Positions 1 through 64,000 of a stretch of DNA of 64,000 nt are shown here, in pieces. The first letter of the stretch is position 1, and each line of letters opens with the position of its first letter. The notes below the pieces were generated by a model. It did not search any database. It was given only the letters and a program-made list of their open reading frames with translations, and had not been told where the DNA came from. The translations under genes were made by a program, and so were the position numbers. Source of the DNA: Apilactobacillus apisilvae (GTDB lineage: Bacteria; Bacillota; Bacilli; Lactobacillales; Lactobacillaceae); NCBI RefSeq assembly GCF_023380225.1, contig NZ_CP093362.1, positions 682,001-746,000 of the forward strand, read 5' to 3'.

Positions 1-65
1 ACTACATCTCCACTTTCATATAAAAGTAAGAATTAGTCAAATTATTTTCTCATTATAAAAGATTA

Positions 66-139
66 TCGGGAAGACAGGATTCGAACCTGCGACCCCCTGG
101 TCCCAAACCAGGTGCTCTACCAAGCTGAGCTACTTCCCG
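66..139 (-). tRNA. tRNA-Pro (anticodon TGG)
   Basis: Cloverleaf on the minus strand with a 7-bp acceptor stem (CGGGAAG with CTTCCCG), TTCGAA T-loop and anticodon loop TTTGGGA. Last gene of an eight-tRNA cluster. The 3' CCA is not encoded; the bases after the discriminator A are TAA. Confidence 0.97.
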
Positions 140-150
140 AAATAAAAAAA

Positions 151-224
151 TGCACCCAGTAGGACTCGAACCTACAACCTTCTGATTCGTAGTCAGACAC
201 TCTATCCAGTTGCGCTATGGGTGC
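151..224 (-). tRNA. tRNA-Arg (anticodon ACG)
   Basis: Cloverleaf with acceptor GCACCCA/TGGGTGC and anticodon loop CTACGAA, giving ACG. A34 is normally deaminated to inosine by TadA so that CGU, CGC and CGA are read. CCA is not encoded. Confidence 0.97.
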
Positions 225-245
225 AAAATAATATATTCAATTAAA

Positions 246-331
246 TGCCGAGGACCGGGATCGAACCGGTACGGTTATTACTAACCGCAGGATTTTAAGT
301 CCTGTGCGTCTGCCAATTCCGCCACCCCGGC
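246..331 (-). tRNA. tRNA-Leu (anticodon TAA)
   Basis: Class II tRNA of 86 nt with a long variable arm. Anticodon loop is CTTAAAA (TAA) and the acceptor is GCCGGGG with one G-U pair. CCA is not encoded. Confidence 0.96.
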
Positions 332-351
332 AGGCATTTTACAATATAAAA

Positions 352-423
352 AGCGGAAGACGAGATTCGAACTCGCGACCCCCACCATGGCAAGGTGATG
401 TTCTACCACTGAACTACTTCCGC
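352..423 (-). tRNA. tRNA-Gly (anticodon GCC)
   Basis: Cloverleaf with acceptor GCGGAAG/CTTCCGC and anticodon loop TTGCCAT, giving GCC. Short (72 nt), as is usual for tRNA-Gly. CCA is not encoded. Confidence 0.96.
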
Positions 424-426
424 ATA

Positions 427-500
427 TGCCGACTAGATGATTCGAACACCCGACCTCTTCATTACTAGTGAAGCGCTCTAGCCAACTGAGCTAAGTCGGC
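427..500 (-). tRNA. tRNA-Thr (anticodon AGT)
   Basis: Cloverleaf with acceptor GCCGACT/AGTCGGC, anticodon stem CTTCA/TGAAG and loop CTAGTAA, so the anticodon is AGT. A34 is uncommon in bacterial tRNAs other than Arg(ACG). The T-stem contains two G-U pairs. CCA is not encoded. Confidence 0.95.
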
Positions 501-518
501 AGTATATGCTGTGCATAA

Positions 519-602
519 TGCGGGCGAAGGGATTCGAACCCCCACTTCCATATAGAAACTAGAACCTAAATCTAGCGCGTCTGCCAGTTCCGCCACGCCC
601 GC
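519..602 (-). tRNA. tRNA-Leu (anticodon TAG)
   Basis: Class II tRNA of 84 nt with a long variable arm, acceptor GCGGGCG/CGCCCGC and anticodon loop TTTAGGT (TAG). CCA is not encoded. Confidence 0.96.
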
Positions 603-624
603 AAGTTGCTTTTTTAAATTGTAA

Positions 625-697
625 TGAGCCGTGGCAGGTTCGAACTGCCGACCCTCTGATTAAAAGTCAGATGCTCTACCGGCTGAGCTAACGGCTC
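625..697 (-). tRNA. tRNA-Lys (anticodon TTT)
   Basis: Cloverleaf with acceptor GAGCCGT/ACGGCTC and anticodon loop CTTTTAA, giving TTT. Second gene of the cluster in transcription order. CCA is not encoded. Confidence 0.97.
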
Positions 698-699
698 AA

Positions 700-772
700 T
701 GGAGGATACAGGGCTCGAACCTGTGACCTCCTGCTTGTAAGGCAGATGCTCTCCCAACTGAGCTAATCCTCC
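700..772 (-). tRNA. tRNA-Val (anticodon TAC)
   Basis: Cloverleaf with acceptor GGAGGAT/ATCCTCC and anticodon loop CTTACAA, giving TAC. First gene of the cluster, about 36 nt downstream of the predicted transcription start. In related bacteria Val-Lys-Leu-Thr-Gly-Leu-Arg-Pro often follows 5S rRNA; here there is no rRNA on its upstream side. CCA is not encoded. Confidence 0.97.
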
Positions 773-4819: not shown

Positions 4820-5045
4820 ATAACTAAAAAAGATCTCCCCATCAAAGAAGAGATCCGTAATTAACAAAGCTTTAATTATTGATCCTAGAAAGCACTCCGT
4901 AGAAAACTACGACAGTCCTCAGCTTATTCAACTGAGCCCCAACTCATAATTAATAAAGTAATTATAAATTTCGGCAAAATCCCCTTTCACAAGTTCTTTT
5001 TAATCACTTTATTGACTAGAACCCGTTAATAATGTCATTTGCGCC
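4820..5045 (-). promoter_or_regulatory. Lysine riboswitch (L-box) with terminator
   Basis: The minus strand shows the conserved L-box blocks in order: GAGGCGCAAATGA, an AACGGGTTCTAGT region, GTGAAAGGGGATTTTGCCGAA, TTGGGGCTC...GAGGACTGTC, and GGAGTGCTTTCT. An intrinsic terminator follows (GATCTCTTC...GGGGAGATC plus T-run, about 4820-4853). By family knowledge, lysine binding favours termination, so the permease is made when lysine is scarce. Confidence 0.95.
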
Positions 5046-5066
5046 TCTTCTTAGATTTACTAGGTC

Positions 5067-61772: not shown

Positions 61773-61807
61773 ATAAAAGAGTGAACTTAATGTTCACTCT
61801 TTTTTGT
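61773..61807 (+). terminator. Terminator of the APC permease gene
   Basis: AAAGAGTGAAC/GTTCACTCTTT stem, TTAAT loop, T6. Confidence 0.88.
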
Positions 61808-61812
61808 TATGC

Positions 61813-61841
61813 TTGACTTTTATATAGGATAAATTTAAAAT
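61813..61841 (+). promoter_or_regulatory. Promoter of the tryptophan-transporter leader
   Basis: TTGACT (61813-61818), 17 bp, TAAAAT (61836-61841). Predicted transcription start near 61848, so the mRNA carries about 310 nt before trpX. Confidence 0.72.
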
Positions 61842-61847
61842 TAAACT

Positions 61848-62112
61848 TAATAAATGAAAGGGGAAAGATCCAATGGAAAATATTTTAAACAACTTATCAA
61901 TAGTTTCTACTTGGCAAAGCTGGTGTTAATAAATCGCATTATAAAATACAGATGCGATTTAATTAGATGTTCCTATTAATTAAGCGCATCTGTACCAGCT
62001 TCTTTCTCACGAATCAATAAAAGCTTGTGCGGATGAAATTCAAACACCACAGGTATGCTATATATGTATTTTAAGCGGATAAACCTGGGATGTTTGGGTT
62101 ATCCGCTTTTTT
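61848..62112 (+). promoter_or_regulatory. Candidate Trp attenuator upstream of trpX
   Basis: Visible pairings: (P1) AAGCTGGT 61917-61924 with ACCAGCTT 61994-62001; (A) AAATCGCAT 61931-61939 with ATGCGATTT 61952-61960; (B) ACAGATGCG 61948-61956 with CGCATCTGT 61985-61993, plus TTAATTA/TAATTAA inside. A and B share bases and exclude each other. (C) TGGTGTT 61921-61927 can instead pair with AACACCA 62043-62049. (T) Terminator AAGCGGATAA 62073-62082 with TTATCCGCTT 62099-62108, then T-run. GCGGAT 62029-62034 can compete for the 3' arm of T. There is no T-box motif. Fills the 395-bp gap before trpX. Confidence 0.62.
61873..61929 (+). CDS. 18-codon leader peptide with two Trp codons
   Basis: ATG at 61873, 9 nt after AAAGGGG, encodes MENILNNLSIVSTWQSWC, then TAA. 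Trp codons are at positions 14 and 17. Trp is the rarest residue in most proteins, so two among the last five codons right before an RNA switch is the classic attenuation layout. The 3' end of the frame (AAGCTGGT, 61917-61924) is also the 5' arm of an RNA stem. Too short to be a functional enzyme; the likely role is to report Trp-tRNA supply by ribosome stalling. Confidence 0.65.
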   Translation: MENILNNLSIVSTWQSWC

Positions 62113-62158: not shown

Positions 62159-63154
62159 ATGAAACGTTTATATTCAGTAATTATTGTATTATTTCTAATT
62201 TTAGCGTTTGGTTATTATAAAGAGAAACAACCTGTAAAAATAAGTCGTGATCATATCCCACAAATTGGGATTTTACAACTAACAGAGCATCCCGCTTTGG
62301 ATGCCATCCATCATGGAATTATACAAGGATTAAAAGAATCCGGATTTCAACCTGGTAAAAATATTAAGATTGATTTTCAAAATGCCGAAAACGATCAAAG
62401 TAATCTAAAAACAATGAGTACGAAGTTTGCAAATGAAAATGTCGACTTATCAATTGGTATTGCTACCCCTTCTGCTCAAGTTTTAGCAAATACAGTAAAA
62501 AATAGACCTTTAGTTTTAGGTGCCATTACAGATCCTAAGTCAGCTGGACTAGTAAATTCAAATCAAAAACCAGGTCGAAACACCACCGGAGTTTCAGATC
62601 TTCCACCAATGAAGCAACAACTAGATCTAATAAAACAAATTATGCCAAATATGAAAACTTTGGGCGTTATTTATACTTCTAGTGATGATTCAGCTACTAG
62701 CCAATACAAAAAATTTACGGAAATATGTAAACAAGAAGGAATTAAAGTTAAAGGATACTCAATTGCTAATACAAATGATTTAAATCAAGTTGCTACTCAA
62801 ATGGTCCAAAATGTTGATGCAGTCTATGTACCAAATGATAATACTGTAGCATCAGCAATCCAAACATTAGTCGCAGTGGCCAATAAACGTAACGTCCCTA
62901 TTTTCCCTACAGCATCAAATGTCGTTAAAAATGGCGGAATTGCAACCTATGGCTTAAATCAATTTAAATTAGGTGTGGAAACCGGTAAAGTTACTGCAAA
63001 AATAATACATGGCGAAAATGCATCAGAAATGCCAATTCAAACTTTAAAACATGGTGATTTAGCACTTAACCTCAACCAGGCTAGAAAATTAGGCATTCAT
63101 ATTCCTCAACCATTAATTCAAAAAGCTGAAAGACAAGGAGTGATTTATAAATGA
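62159..63154 (+). CDS. trpX: ABC transporter substrate-binding protein, TrpX type
   Basis: Extracytoplasmic receptor of 331 aa (COG2984-type). The N-terminal MKRLYSVIIVLFLILAFGYY is a signal or anchor without a lipobox Cys. The PBP1-like domain follows: IGILQLTEHPALDAIHHGIIQGLKESGFQPGKNIKIDFQNAENDQSNL, then VLGAITDPKSAGLV and VYVPNDNTVASAIQTL, all typical of TrpX/ABC_sub_bind proteins. In streptococci and lactobacilli TrpX works with TrpY and TrpZ to import tryptophan. The Trp-codon leader upstream supports that substrate. AAGGAG about 10 nt before the ATG. The stop overlaps the start of trpY (ATGA). Confidence 0.87.
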   Translation: MKRLYSVIIVLFLILAFGYYKEKQPVKISRDHIPQIGILQLTEHPALDAIHHGIIQGLKESGFQPGKNIKIDFQNAENDQSNLKTMSTKFANENVDLSIGIATPSAQVLANTVKNRPLVLGAITDPKSAGLVNSNQKPGRNTTGVSDLPPMKQQLDLIKQIMPNMKTLGVIYTSSDDSATSQYKKFTEICKQEGIKVKGYSIANTNDLNQVATQMVQNVDAVYVPNDNTVASAIQTLVAVANKRNVPIFPTASNVVKNGGIATYGLNQFKLGVETGKVTAKIIHGENASEMPIQTLKHGDLALNLNQARKLGIHIPQPLIQKAERQGVIYK

Positions 63155-64000
63155 GTTTAATAATTTCTGCAATTGGCCAAGGCCTATTATGGGCAGTAAT
63201 AGGAGTTGGACTATACCTAACCTTTAGAATTTTAGATTTCCCAGATATGACAGTCGAAGGTACTTTTCCTATGGGAGCTGCAACCGCAGTTACAGCAATT
63301 GCTCATGGATATTCACCAATAATCGCAACGATTATGGCCTTTTTAGTGGGATGCCTCGCTGGTTTAGTAACCGGATTGTTATACACAAAAGCTAAAATTC
63401 CAGTATTATTAGCTGGGATTTTGGTTATGACAGCATCATATTCCATTGATTTGAGAATCATGGGTAAACCCAACCAATCTTTATTAGGTTTACCAACATT
63501 ATTAAATGGCCATTTTTTTCAATCACTACCACCATATTTTGATAGTGTTGCTTTAGGACTTATTATTATTGTAATCGTAACAATTGTATTGGTATATTTC
63601 TTACAAACTGATTTAGGTCAAGCATTTATCGCTACTGGTGATAATGAAAACATGGCTGAATCTTTAGGCATTAATACTGATAATATGAAAATAATGGGTG
63701 TTAGTGTATCAAATGGTTTAATTGCTTTAGGTGGTGCCCTTGTTGCACAAAACAATGGCTACTCAGATGTTAATATGGGAATTGGAATCATTGTTGTTGC
63801 ACTTGCATCCATCATTATTGGTGAAGTCGTATTTGGTGATTTAACAATGGTGCAAAGACTAATCGCCGTTACTATTGGCAGTATCATTTATCGTTTAGTT
63901 TTATTATTGGTATTACAACTAGGATTCAATGCAACCGATCTAAACCTTATTTCATCAGTATTACTAGCTATTTTCATGGGAGTGCCAGCTTTAGAAAAGA
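63151..64000 (+). CDS. trpY: ABC transporter permease, TrpY type (partial)
   Basis: Membrane permease, 283 codons seen, cut by the window end. About eight hydrophobic segments; ILDFPDMTVEGTFPMGAA and DNENMAESLGINTDNMKIMGVSVSNGLIALGGALVAQNNGYSDVNMGIGIIVVALASIIIGE match COG4120-type permeases of the branched-chain-permease family. ATG overlaps the trpX stop codon, with AAGGAG upstream. A trpZ ATPase gene is expected just beyond 64000. Confidence 0.86.
   Translation, partial: MSLIISAIGQGLLWAVIGVGLYLTFRILDFPDMTVEGTFPMGAATAVTAIAHGYSPIIATIMAFLVGCLAGLVTGLLYTKAKIPVLLAGILVMTASYSIDLRIMGKPNQSLLGLPTLLNGHFFQSLPPYFDSVALGLIIIVIVTIVLVYFLQTDLGQAFIATGDNENMAESLGINTDNMKIMGVSVSNGLIALGGALVAQNNGYSDVNMGIGIIVVALASIIIGEVVFGDLTMVQRLIAVTIGSIIYRLVLLLVLQLGFNATDLNLISSVLLAIFMGVPALEK

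Follow-up and report, generated by a model that had tools for sequence, protein, structure and literature searches.

A tryptophan-codon leader peptide appears to control trpX in Apilactobacillus apisilvae by transcription attenuation and probably shares an RNA chassis with RF04312 and RF02863

Introduction

The 3' end of the window, the whole 64,000-nucleotide stretch of Apilactobacillus apisilvae DNA analyzed here, raises the question of what signal decides whether transcription proceeds into a tryptophan importer operon, since a short open reading frame (ORF) with Trp codons, several alternative hairpins, and an intrinsic terminator precede trpX. In the enterobacterial trp and his attenuators, a leader ORF with sensor codons is followed by alternating strands and a terminator, the his system being a multistrand relay. 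Among Gram-positive relatives, a T-box has been placed before trpXYZ of Streptococcus suis (PMC9382623), a His leader has been described in bacilli and leader peptides are said to replace T-boxes in Firmicutes (Naville and Gautheret 2010, PMC2965389), and further His leaders have been reported (PMC9413887), according to the accessible parts of these papers. The "trpB motif" (RF04312), which lies upstream of an uncharacterized ABC transporter of the amino-acid type or, in some cases, of trpB, has been put forward as a strong riboswitch candidate, and in the accessible part of that study its authors did not rule out a classic attenuator (Narunsky et al. 2024, PMC11109978). No Trp leader peptide before trpX in lactobacilli was found by title or abstract start in the open-licence literature, which leaves its absence unproven; in the same literature, the identifier RF04312 was not found and the term "trpB motif" was confined to one paper.

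Results

Organization of the trpX leader

The initial annotation had placed a promoter, a ribosome site, an 18-codon ORF, switching hairpins, and a terminator before a tryptophan-type importer, and all of these were recovered where it had put them (Table 1), as were the two segments ACCAGCTT (61994-62001) and AACACCA (62043-62049) that it had named as freed to re-pair. The importer assignment also held, with the trpX product matching NCBIfam model NF041285 (TrpX) at 446.8 bits (cut-off, 390); its nearest named relatives, from A. micheneri, A. timberlakei, and A. quenuiae, are 91-92% identical. About 50 bp separate the leader terminator from the trpX start; upstream of the leader promoter, an amino-acid permease gene has its terminator at 61775-61803. 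Elsewhere in the window are a lysine riboswitch (RF00168, 107 bits; 4882-5057, minus strand) and a cluster of eight tRNA genes (66-772, minus strand).

Table 1. Features of the trpX leader and operon in the window
Feature	Position	Strand	Basis or partner
Promoter TTGACT-17-TAAAAT	61813-61841	+	motif scan
Shine-Dalgarno region of leader ORF (strand a)	61857-61868	+	can pair with a' (62002-62008)
Leader ORF MENILNNLSIVSTWQSWC, 18 codons plus stop	61873-61929	+	sequence read
First Trp codon, common to relatives	61912-61914	+	
Second Trp codon, 16/16 genomes of the genus, not general	61921-61923	+	
P1b 5' arm AAGCTGGT, last leader codons	61917-61924	+	pairs with 61994-62001
Strand A AAATCGCAT	61931-61939	+	pairs with B (helix P2)
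Strand B ACAGATGCGATTT	61948-61960	+	pairs with A (P2) or C (P2')
Strand C GCGCATCTGTACC	61984-61996	+	pairs with B (P2') or D (antiterminator)
Strand C' ACCAGCTT, 3' arm of P1b	61994-62001	+	covariation
Strand a' CTTTCTC	62002-62008	+	complementary to the leader's own ribosome site
Strand D	62021-62040	+	duplex comparison
CTTGTG within strand D	62024-62029	+	pairs with E
GTGCGGATG within strand D	62027-62035	+	pairs with C
Strand E AAACACCACAGGTAT	62042-62056	+	pairs with D or F
Strand F AAACCTGGGATGTTT, terminator 5' half	62081-62095	+	pairs with E or G
Intrinsic terminator, F:G hairpin (62073-62108) then U tract	62073-62112	+	-16.1 kcal/mol
Subthreshold RF04312 "trpB motif" match	61945-62070	+	30.6 bits (gathering, 59); E = 0.018
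trpX, tryptophan ABC transporter substrate-binding protein	62159-63154	+	NF041285
Permease gene of the same operon, trpY-like, cut by window end	63151-63999	+	BPD_transp_2

Simple promoter and terminator scans were uninformative alone: the promoter motif occurred at 6 sites in the window versus 7.3 +/- 2.5 in shuffled sequences, which is the chance level, and the leader terminator was absent from the output of the terminator scan because its loop exceeds the length that the scan allows. Of 76 captured leaders (the capture missed L022, L023, L025, L034, L039, L044, L047, L133, L142, and L149), 70, that of the window included, had the pattern TTGACN-16..18-TAnnnT no more than 95 nt 5' of their start, compared with 53 of 3800 control stretches taken at these loci. 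The leader of the window folds with an energy of -70.7 kcal/mol versus -49.0 +/- 4.6 kcal/mol for its shuffles (z = -4.8), and 1 of 200 shuffles folded as well. At the Rfam gathering thresholds, nothing matched the leader and a T-box (RF00230) had no match in the window; RF04312 appeared at a permissive threshold only, and no enterobacterial trp or his leader family was among the Rfam matches of the window.

Trp-codon leaders before trpX in Lactobacillaceae and neighboring families

TrpX was detected in 359 of 397 family genomes (E up to 1e-60). A covariance model of the leader end and following hairpins (R1) was built from alignment A1, which comprised 31 leaders hand-picked from 41 remaining rows; left out before these counts were L004, L007, L008, L010, L017 to L019, and L040 as duplicates, and L023, L025, L033, L034, and L044 as lacking a match. 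R1 later matched L023, L025, L040, and L044 and gave no match on L033 and L034. The model matched 250 of the 397 genomes, in 24 of 40 genera. When 23 TrpX-containing genomes from the 147 without an R1 match were re-examined, a Trp-codon leader was seen before a trpX copy in 22 (L142, L143, and L149 were read by eye), with endings of the WW type (WWRR in seven, WWQSH in two, and WWRQ, WWRG, WWRF, WWRS, and WWQSQL) or of other types (WWWLG in two, and WRSR, WQSR, WQSPH, WQSLH, WQSQH, and WQSQQ). The sole genome of the 23 in which no leader was seen (G057, locus L133) counts against an attenuator; in all, 5 of 27 TrpX-like copies in these genomes were without one (L133 to L135, L156, and L157).

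In two other families of the order, Trp leaders preceded trpX at 16 of 17 loci read, with endings such as WQSQDR, WQSQNR, WHNQDR, and WQTWRR; the remaining locus begins at a contig end, so that the place read was not the right one. At gathering, no T-box was found in 20 of the 27 re-examined TrpX-like loci or in 18 further loci (17 outside the family and one inside). Trp leader peptides had initially been regarded as unusual in Lactobacillales, an expectation that did not hold for trpX in the families read. If the leaders act as proposed below, they would carry classical control of tryptophan genes by leader peptides into a large group of lactic acid bacteria in which T-boxes are expected. The streptococcal trpXYZ T-box serves the same operon and likewise attenuates transcription in response to tRNA, but there, as far as the accessible part of the report goes, tRNA binds the RNA directly, unlike in a ribosome-mediated leader (PMC9382623). 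The Firmicutes His leaders, in the accessible parts of their descriptions, resemble the trpX leader in being leader-peptide control in place of a T-box, with histidine instead of Trp as the amino acid. In six loci of another family of the order (L168, L171, L172, L174, L181, and L183), a second Trp-codon mini-ORF (e.g., MRQWTSQRWQSK) was observed after the terminators, close before trpX.

R1 copies were also present before oligopeptide-binding-type proteins, at L085 to L087 (ending TWQSW; among these proteins, L086 alone was scanned), L128 (WQSWQS), and L124, and at L125 one lies some 480 bases 5' of an ORF for an aldo/keto reductase. The L124 leader, before a peptide-binding protein, has CUG for UGG and reads NIRLRSR, an observation compatible with either re-targeting to Leu or decay.

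A conserved reading frame with one general Trp codon

Among 89 distinct R1 leaders, 87 had a start codon and ribosome site in the expected frame that remained open to the UGG codon, versus 1 and 1 in the other two frames, so that the initially proposed reading frame was kept in homologous leaders. The exceptions, L047 (CTG at the expected start) and L124, speak against the attenuator, as does the three-Trp ORF of L142 and L143, which is without a clear ribosome site. Matches to R1, which starts at UGG, are biased in favor of this codon, a bias that does not enter the frame test or the ORF test on RF04312 loci (below). In the window, judged from sequence features, a short ORF with a ribosome site lies near the transcript 5' end and, like its relatives, carries codons for the amino acid of its operon (TGG at 61912 and 61921).

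Only the first Trp codon is general across leaders. Of the pair initially emphasized, the second codon is a feature of the genus, and two Trp codons are found in 23 of 87 leaders; a single Trp codon in the other 64 is a point against an attenuator. The distance from Trp to stop was 4 codons in 51 leaders, 5 in 18 (in the window, the stop lies 5 codons beyond the first UGG), 6 in 11, 8 in 5, and 3 in 2. That many leaders place a single Trp a constant few codons before the stop would suit nascent-peptide arrest of the TnaC kind, in which a translated Trp peptide responds to free tryptophan and blocks release. However, the residues between Trp and stop differ among WQSR, WQNR, WQGWQY, WHIR, WQSQQ, WWRR, WWRG, WWQSH, and WWWLG, and the stop codon itself varies (TAA in 60, TAG in 23, and TGA in 4). 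Since Trp is kept and the residues 3' of it are variable, the codon rather than the peptide appears to be sensed. Moreover, relatives carry Phe/Tyr or His codons with matching genes (below), and arrest of this type would presumably switch an importer on at high Trp, which is the wrong direction. We therefore regard TnaC-like arrest as highly unlikely and favor sensing of the Trp codon.

Helix covariation and cognate strand pairing

The initial annotation described a stem whose 5' arm overlaps the last leader codons and a pair of mutually exclusive hairpins. These helices were evaluated in alignment A2, in which 94 of 96 loci (85 distinct sequences) were aligned to the R1 structure, L136 and L140 falling below the threshold (24 bits). 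In P1b, the stem overlapping the last codons, 95.5% of cells were paired and 5 of 7 pairs had changed on both sides; in P2 (A:B), the values were 89.1% and 11 of 11. Taken jointly, P1b and P2 were paired in 91.7% of cells, with two-sided changes in 16 of their 18 pairs and in 189 cells versus 46 in shuffles; slid partners gave at most 40.0% pairing. P2' (B:C), which shares strand B with P2 and lies outside the fitted R1 model, was paired in 95.4% of cells; two-sided changes were seen in 8 of its 10 pairs, amounting to 105 cells versus 33 in shuffles, with at most 53.5% pairing for slid partners. The shuffle control may be inflated by related sequences; the slid-partner control preserves relatedness. 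By these comparative data, P1b, P2, and P2' covary over 85 distinct sequences, and P2 and P2' are mutually exclusive, so that the covariation sought in the initially described stems was found in a set of alternative helices that includes the ORF end. In an uncontrolled count over the 14 WW-type leaders, the two best complementary stretches included the expected A:B pairing in all 14, P1b in 10, and the B:C pairing in 9. In L146 and L149, strand C lies almost directly 3' of the stop and no A or B was seen, which may represent a minimal version.

The downstream strands are more variable; for these, the energy of each cognate duplex was set against that of duplexes formed across representatives (2000 permutations; 27 representatives of 51 leaders). 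Strands were cut from 55 of the 76 leaders, and 51 of the 55 entered the comparison, L029, L101, and L131 being omitted for want of a second hairpin and L045 for want of a terminator; some cut segments (e.g., L020 and L021) look mis-cut. Cognate pairing was stronger for C:D (-14.86 versus -12.60 kcal/mol), D:E (-17.86 versus -10.95), E:F (-12.13 versus -9.35), and a:a', the pairing of the ribosome site with the stretch 3' of C' (-7.38 versus -6.10), each equaled in 0 of 2000 permutations. The corresponding counts for control pairings were 697 for C:F, 1436 for D:F, 865 for C:E, and 285 for a':D. Strands with cognate antiterminator complementarity thus accompany the intrinsic terminator, with which they would compete. 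In many relatives the D:E hairpin is followed by U residues, so that two terminators would stand in series there; the D:E hairpin of the window has no U tract.

Proposed attenuation mechanism

Masked equilibrium folding was applied to the window leader and to 34 sequences hand-picked from 51. With the window transcript extended up to D, a mask at UGG gave 7.5 (A:B), 0.5 (B:C), and 12.2 (C:D) expected pairs, whereas a mask at the stop gave 0.0, 9.8, and 0.2. Over the 34 sequences, masking at UGG lowered B:C in 23, raised it in 0, and left it nearly unchanged in 11, and C:D was higher in 14, lower in 2, and nearly unchanged in 18. Masked folding thus supports the choice between A:B and B:C and partly that of C:D. 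It did not reproduce the later steps D:E, E:F, and F:G, which counts against the attenuator: in the window transcript ending after F, E:F had 12.1 pairs and D:E almost none in both masked states; mean values for the 34 sequences were nearly equal between states (D:E, 9.16 versus 9.35; E:F, 2.60 versus 2.53); and the full transcript formed the terminator in every state (F:G, 12.2), with no antiterminator competition at equilibrium. A purely thermodynamic switch is opposed by these results, in which the later steps were not discriminated, and folding during transcription would have to decide them.

Taken with the comparative evidence, we consider it very probable that the leader is a ribosome-mediated transcription attenuator that senses the charging of Trp-tRNA and controls trpX. 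The footprint of a ribosome reaches about 12 nt 3' of the first nucleotide of its A-site codon. When charged Trp-tRNA is scarce, a ribosome would wait with the UGG at 61912 in its A site, covering the RNA up to roughly where the P1b 5' arm ends and leaving strand A free; A:B would form, B would be unavailable to C, and C:D would pair, whereupon E:F would pair, block the terminator F:G, and leave trpX on. When Trp is plentiful, the ribosome would reach the stop codon and cover strand A, so that B:C, D:E, and F:G would form and trpX would be off. After release, P1b and a:a' could close over the ORF and ribosome site, which may limit further rounds of leader translation. The proposed key switch is A:B versus B:C, followed by C:D versus D:E and E:F versus F:G; we infer the stalling, the footprint, the later steps with their order, and the direction of the response.

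This scheme modifies the initial suggestion that stalling frees ACCAGCTT and AACACCA to re-pair. Both segments are present, but the former is the 3' arm of the helix closing on the last leader codons, the latter is part of strand E, for which pairing with the 5' portion of the terminator is supported, and the switching steps are those given above. The ORF, sensor codons, alternating strands, and terminator are shared with the enterobacterial trp and his attenuators, and the multistrand relay with that of his; the trpX leader differs from these in usually having one Trp codon close to the stop, in an extra strand A that would give a ribosome at the stop codon its off role, and in the complementarity to its own ribosome site.

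Probable kinship with RF04312 and RF02863 and natural exchange of sensor codons

The RF04312 score of the window is below both the gathering cut-off and that of a likely chance match in the same genome with no leader seen (L207, 33.8 bits), so that the link to RF04312 depends on intermediates. One is L101, which belongs to the same family and is matched by R1 at 50.5 bits (leader ending VWQSR); it scored 60.1 bits with RF04312 at an overlapping place. L195 and L197 were matched by both models (R1, 51.2 and 51.1 bits; RF04312, 47.2 and 46.7 bits), and R1 matched RF04312 loci outside the family (e.g., L179 at 40.9 and L188 at 39.9 bits). In structure, the first hairpin of RF04312 corresponds to B:C (P2') of the window and its right shoulder to strand C, followed by the terminator, while the accessible part of the published description mentions no ORF or strand A, unlike the trpX leader (PMC11109978). 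Pairing of the right shoulder of a hairpin into the next hairpin or the terminator, a property of RF04312, is seen in the trpX leader as B:C, C:D, and D:E.

Since RF04312 starts downstream of the ORF, the content of the ORF is an independent test. An upstream Trp-codon ORF was found at 42 of the 46 RF04312 loci read (E up to 0.001), the other four having Phe/Tyr codons (two), four His codons (one), or none (one). A class-level search contributed 16 of the loci, in 14 of 299 genomes, with Trp codons at 12, Phe/Tyr codons at L196 and L198 (endings YYFSYFR and FYFSYFR, respectively), four His codons at L194, and no sensor-codon ORF seen at L199 (39.4 bits). In a further family of the order, RF04312 matched 58 places in 46 of 76 genomes; 30 were read together, all with a UGG ORF ending (that of L239 was read by eye, with no start discerned), and one more (G400) was read as L198. 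One of these UGG-ORF leaders, L221, sits before trpB (TIGR00263, 617 bits). A phylum-wide search gave 20 mostly weak places in 19 of 299 genomes, one genome over the cut-off; six of the 20 places were read, L188 in the earlier set and L202, L203, L204, L207, and L220 in addition. Of the five weaker places, L202, L203, L204, and L207 were without a leader, and L220 had the ending YYFSYFR before the shikimate dehydrogenase gene aroE (TIGR00507, 248 bits). Searches of the orders around G508 and G528 (1 and 5 genomes) gave nothing new, and the control genome of Lactococcus lactis gave an RF04312 match below the cut-off. All RF04312 loci examined were within Bacillota. At L187 and L191, Trp leaders (TWQNWHR and TWQNWQI) with a terminator had no sizeable same-strand gene in the roughly 1.5 kb read downstream; they may be orphan attenuators or have an unseen target.

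The four non-Trp leaders were found before correspondingly different genes. The His leader L194 (RF04312, 54.5 bits; cut-off, 59) precedes a hisZ-like gene (TIGR00443, 218 bits, below the cut-off of 272) and then hisG (TIGR00070, 198 bits); the Phe/Tyr leader of L220 precedes aroE, as noted; and those of L198 and L196 precede TrpX-like proteins that score 269 and 384 bits, below the TrpX cut-off of 390, compatible with other aromatic substrates. That sensor codons follow the downstream genes fits attenuation and not an aptamer.

A metabolite-sensing riboswitch, with the ORF incidental or merely modulatory, was the reading implied by the published classification of RF04312 (PMC11109978) and the alternative raised by the initial annotation, and the strong, covarying structure would suit it. 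Nevertheless, pairing is preserved between strands whose sequences vary, conservation extends to the frame of the ORF and to its sensor codon, and codon identity tracks the gene for Trp, Phe/Tyr, and His, albeit in few non-Trp cases; we rate a riboswitch as slightly less likely than TnaC-like arrest. Least likely of all is a leader bound by a TRAP-like or other protein that controls the terminator: although compatible with sequence alone, it is opposed by conservation that sits in the pairing and the ORF and by codons that track genes. The preference for a Trp-codon attenuator over a metabolite-binding RNA, already expressed in the initial annotation, is thereby strengthened, through codon-gene exchanges in few non-Trp cases. 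A leader-peptide switch appears to explain RF04312, which would give a specific, testable identity to an orphan riboswitch candidate with over 900 representatives.

RF02863 ("Enterococcus sRNA 2410"), which is listed as a small RNA gene and differs from the trpX leader in its codons, matches the Phe/Tyr forms: L198 and L220 scored 69.7 and 70.1 bits (gathering, 61), and L196 scored 47.4 bits with each of RF02863 and RF04312, below both cut-offs. With a consensus that opens in leader codons reading FSYFR, RF02863 resembles a leader attenuator more than an sRNA, and this suggests a role as the 5' leader of aromatic genes for a family catalogued among small RNAs. We judge it likely that RF04312, RF02863, and the trpX leaders of Lactobacillaceae belong to a single superfamily of leader-peptide attenuators that share a multistrand RNA chassis and are re-targeted by sensor-codon swaps. 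Such a superfamily would use Trp codons for trpX and trpB, Phe/Tyr for aroE and aromatic importers, His for hisZ-hisG, and perhaps Leu or Trp for peptide importers, with a single sensor codon often read from the 12-18 nt by which the ribosome position at this codon differs from that at the stop. Sensor codons exchanged in nature on one chassis would constitute an unusually clean test of attenuation, and such a chassis would offer a ready design for amino-acid sensors.
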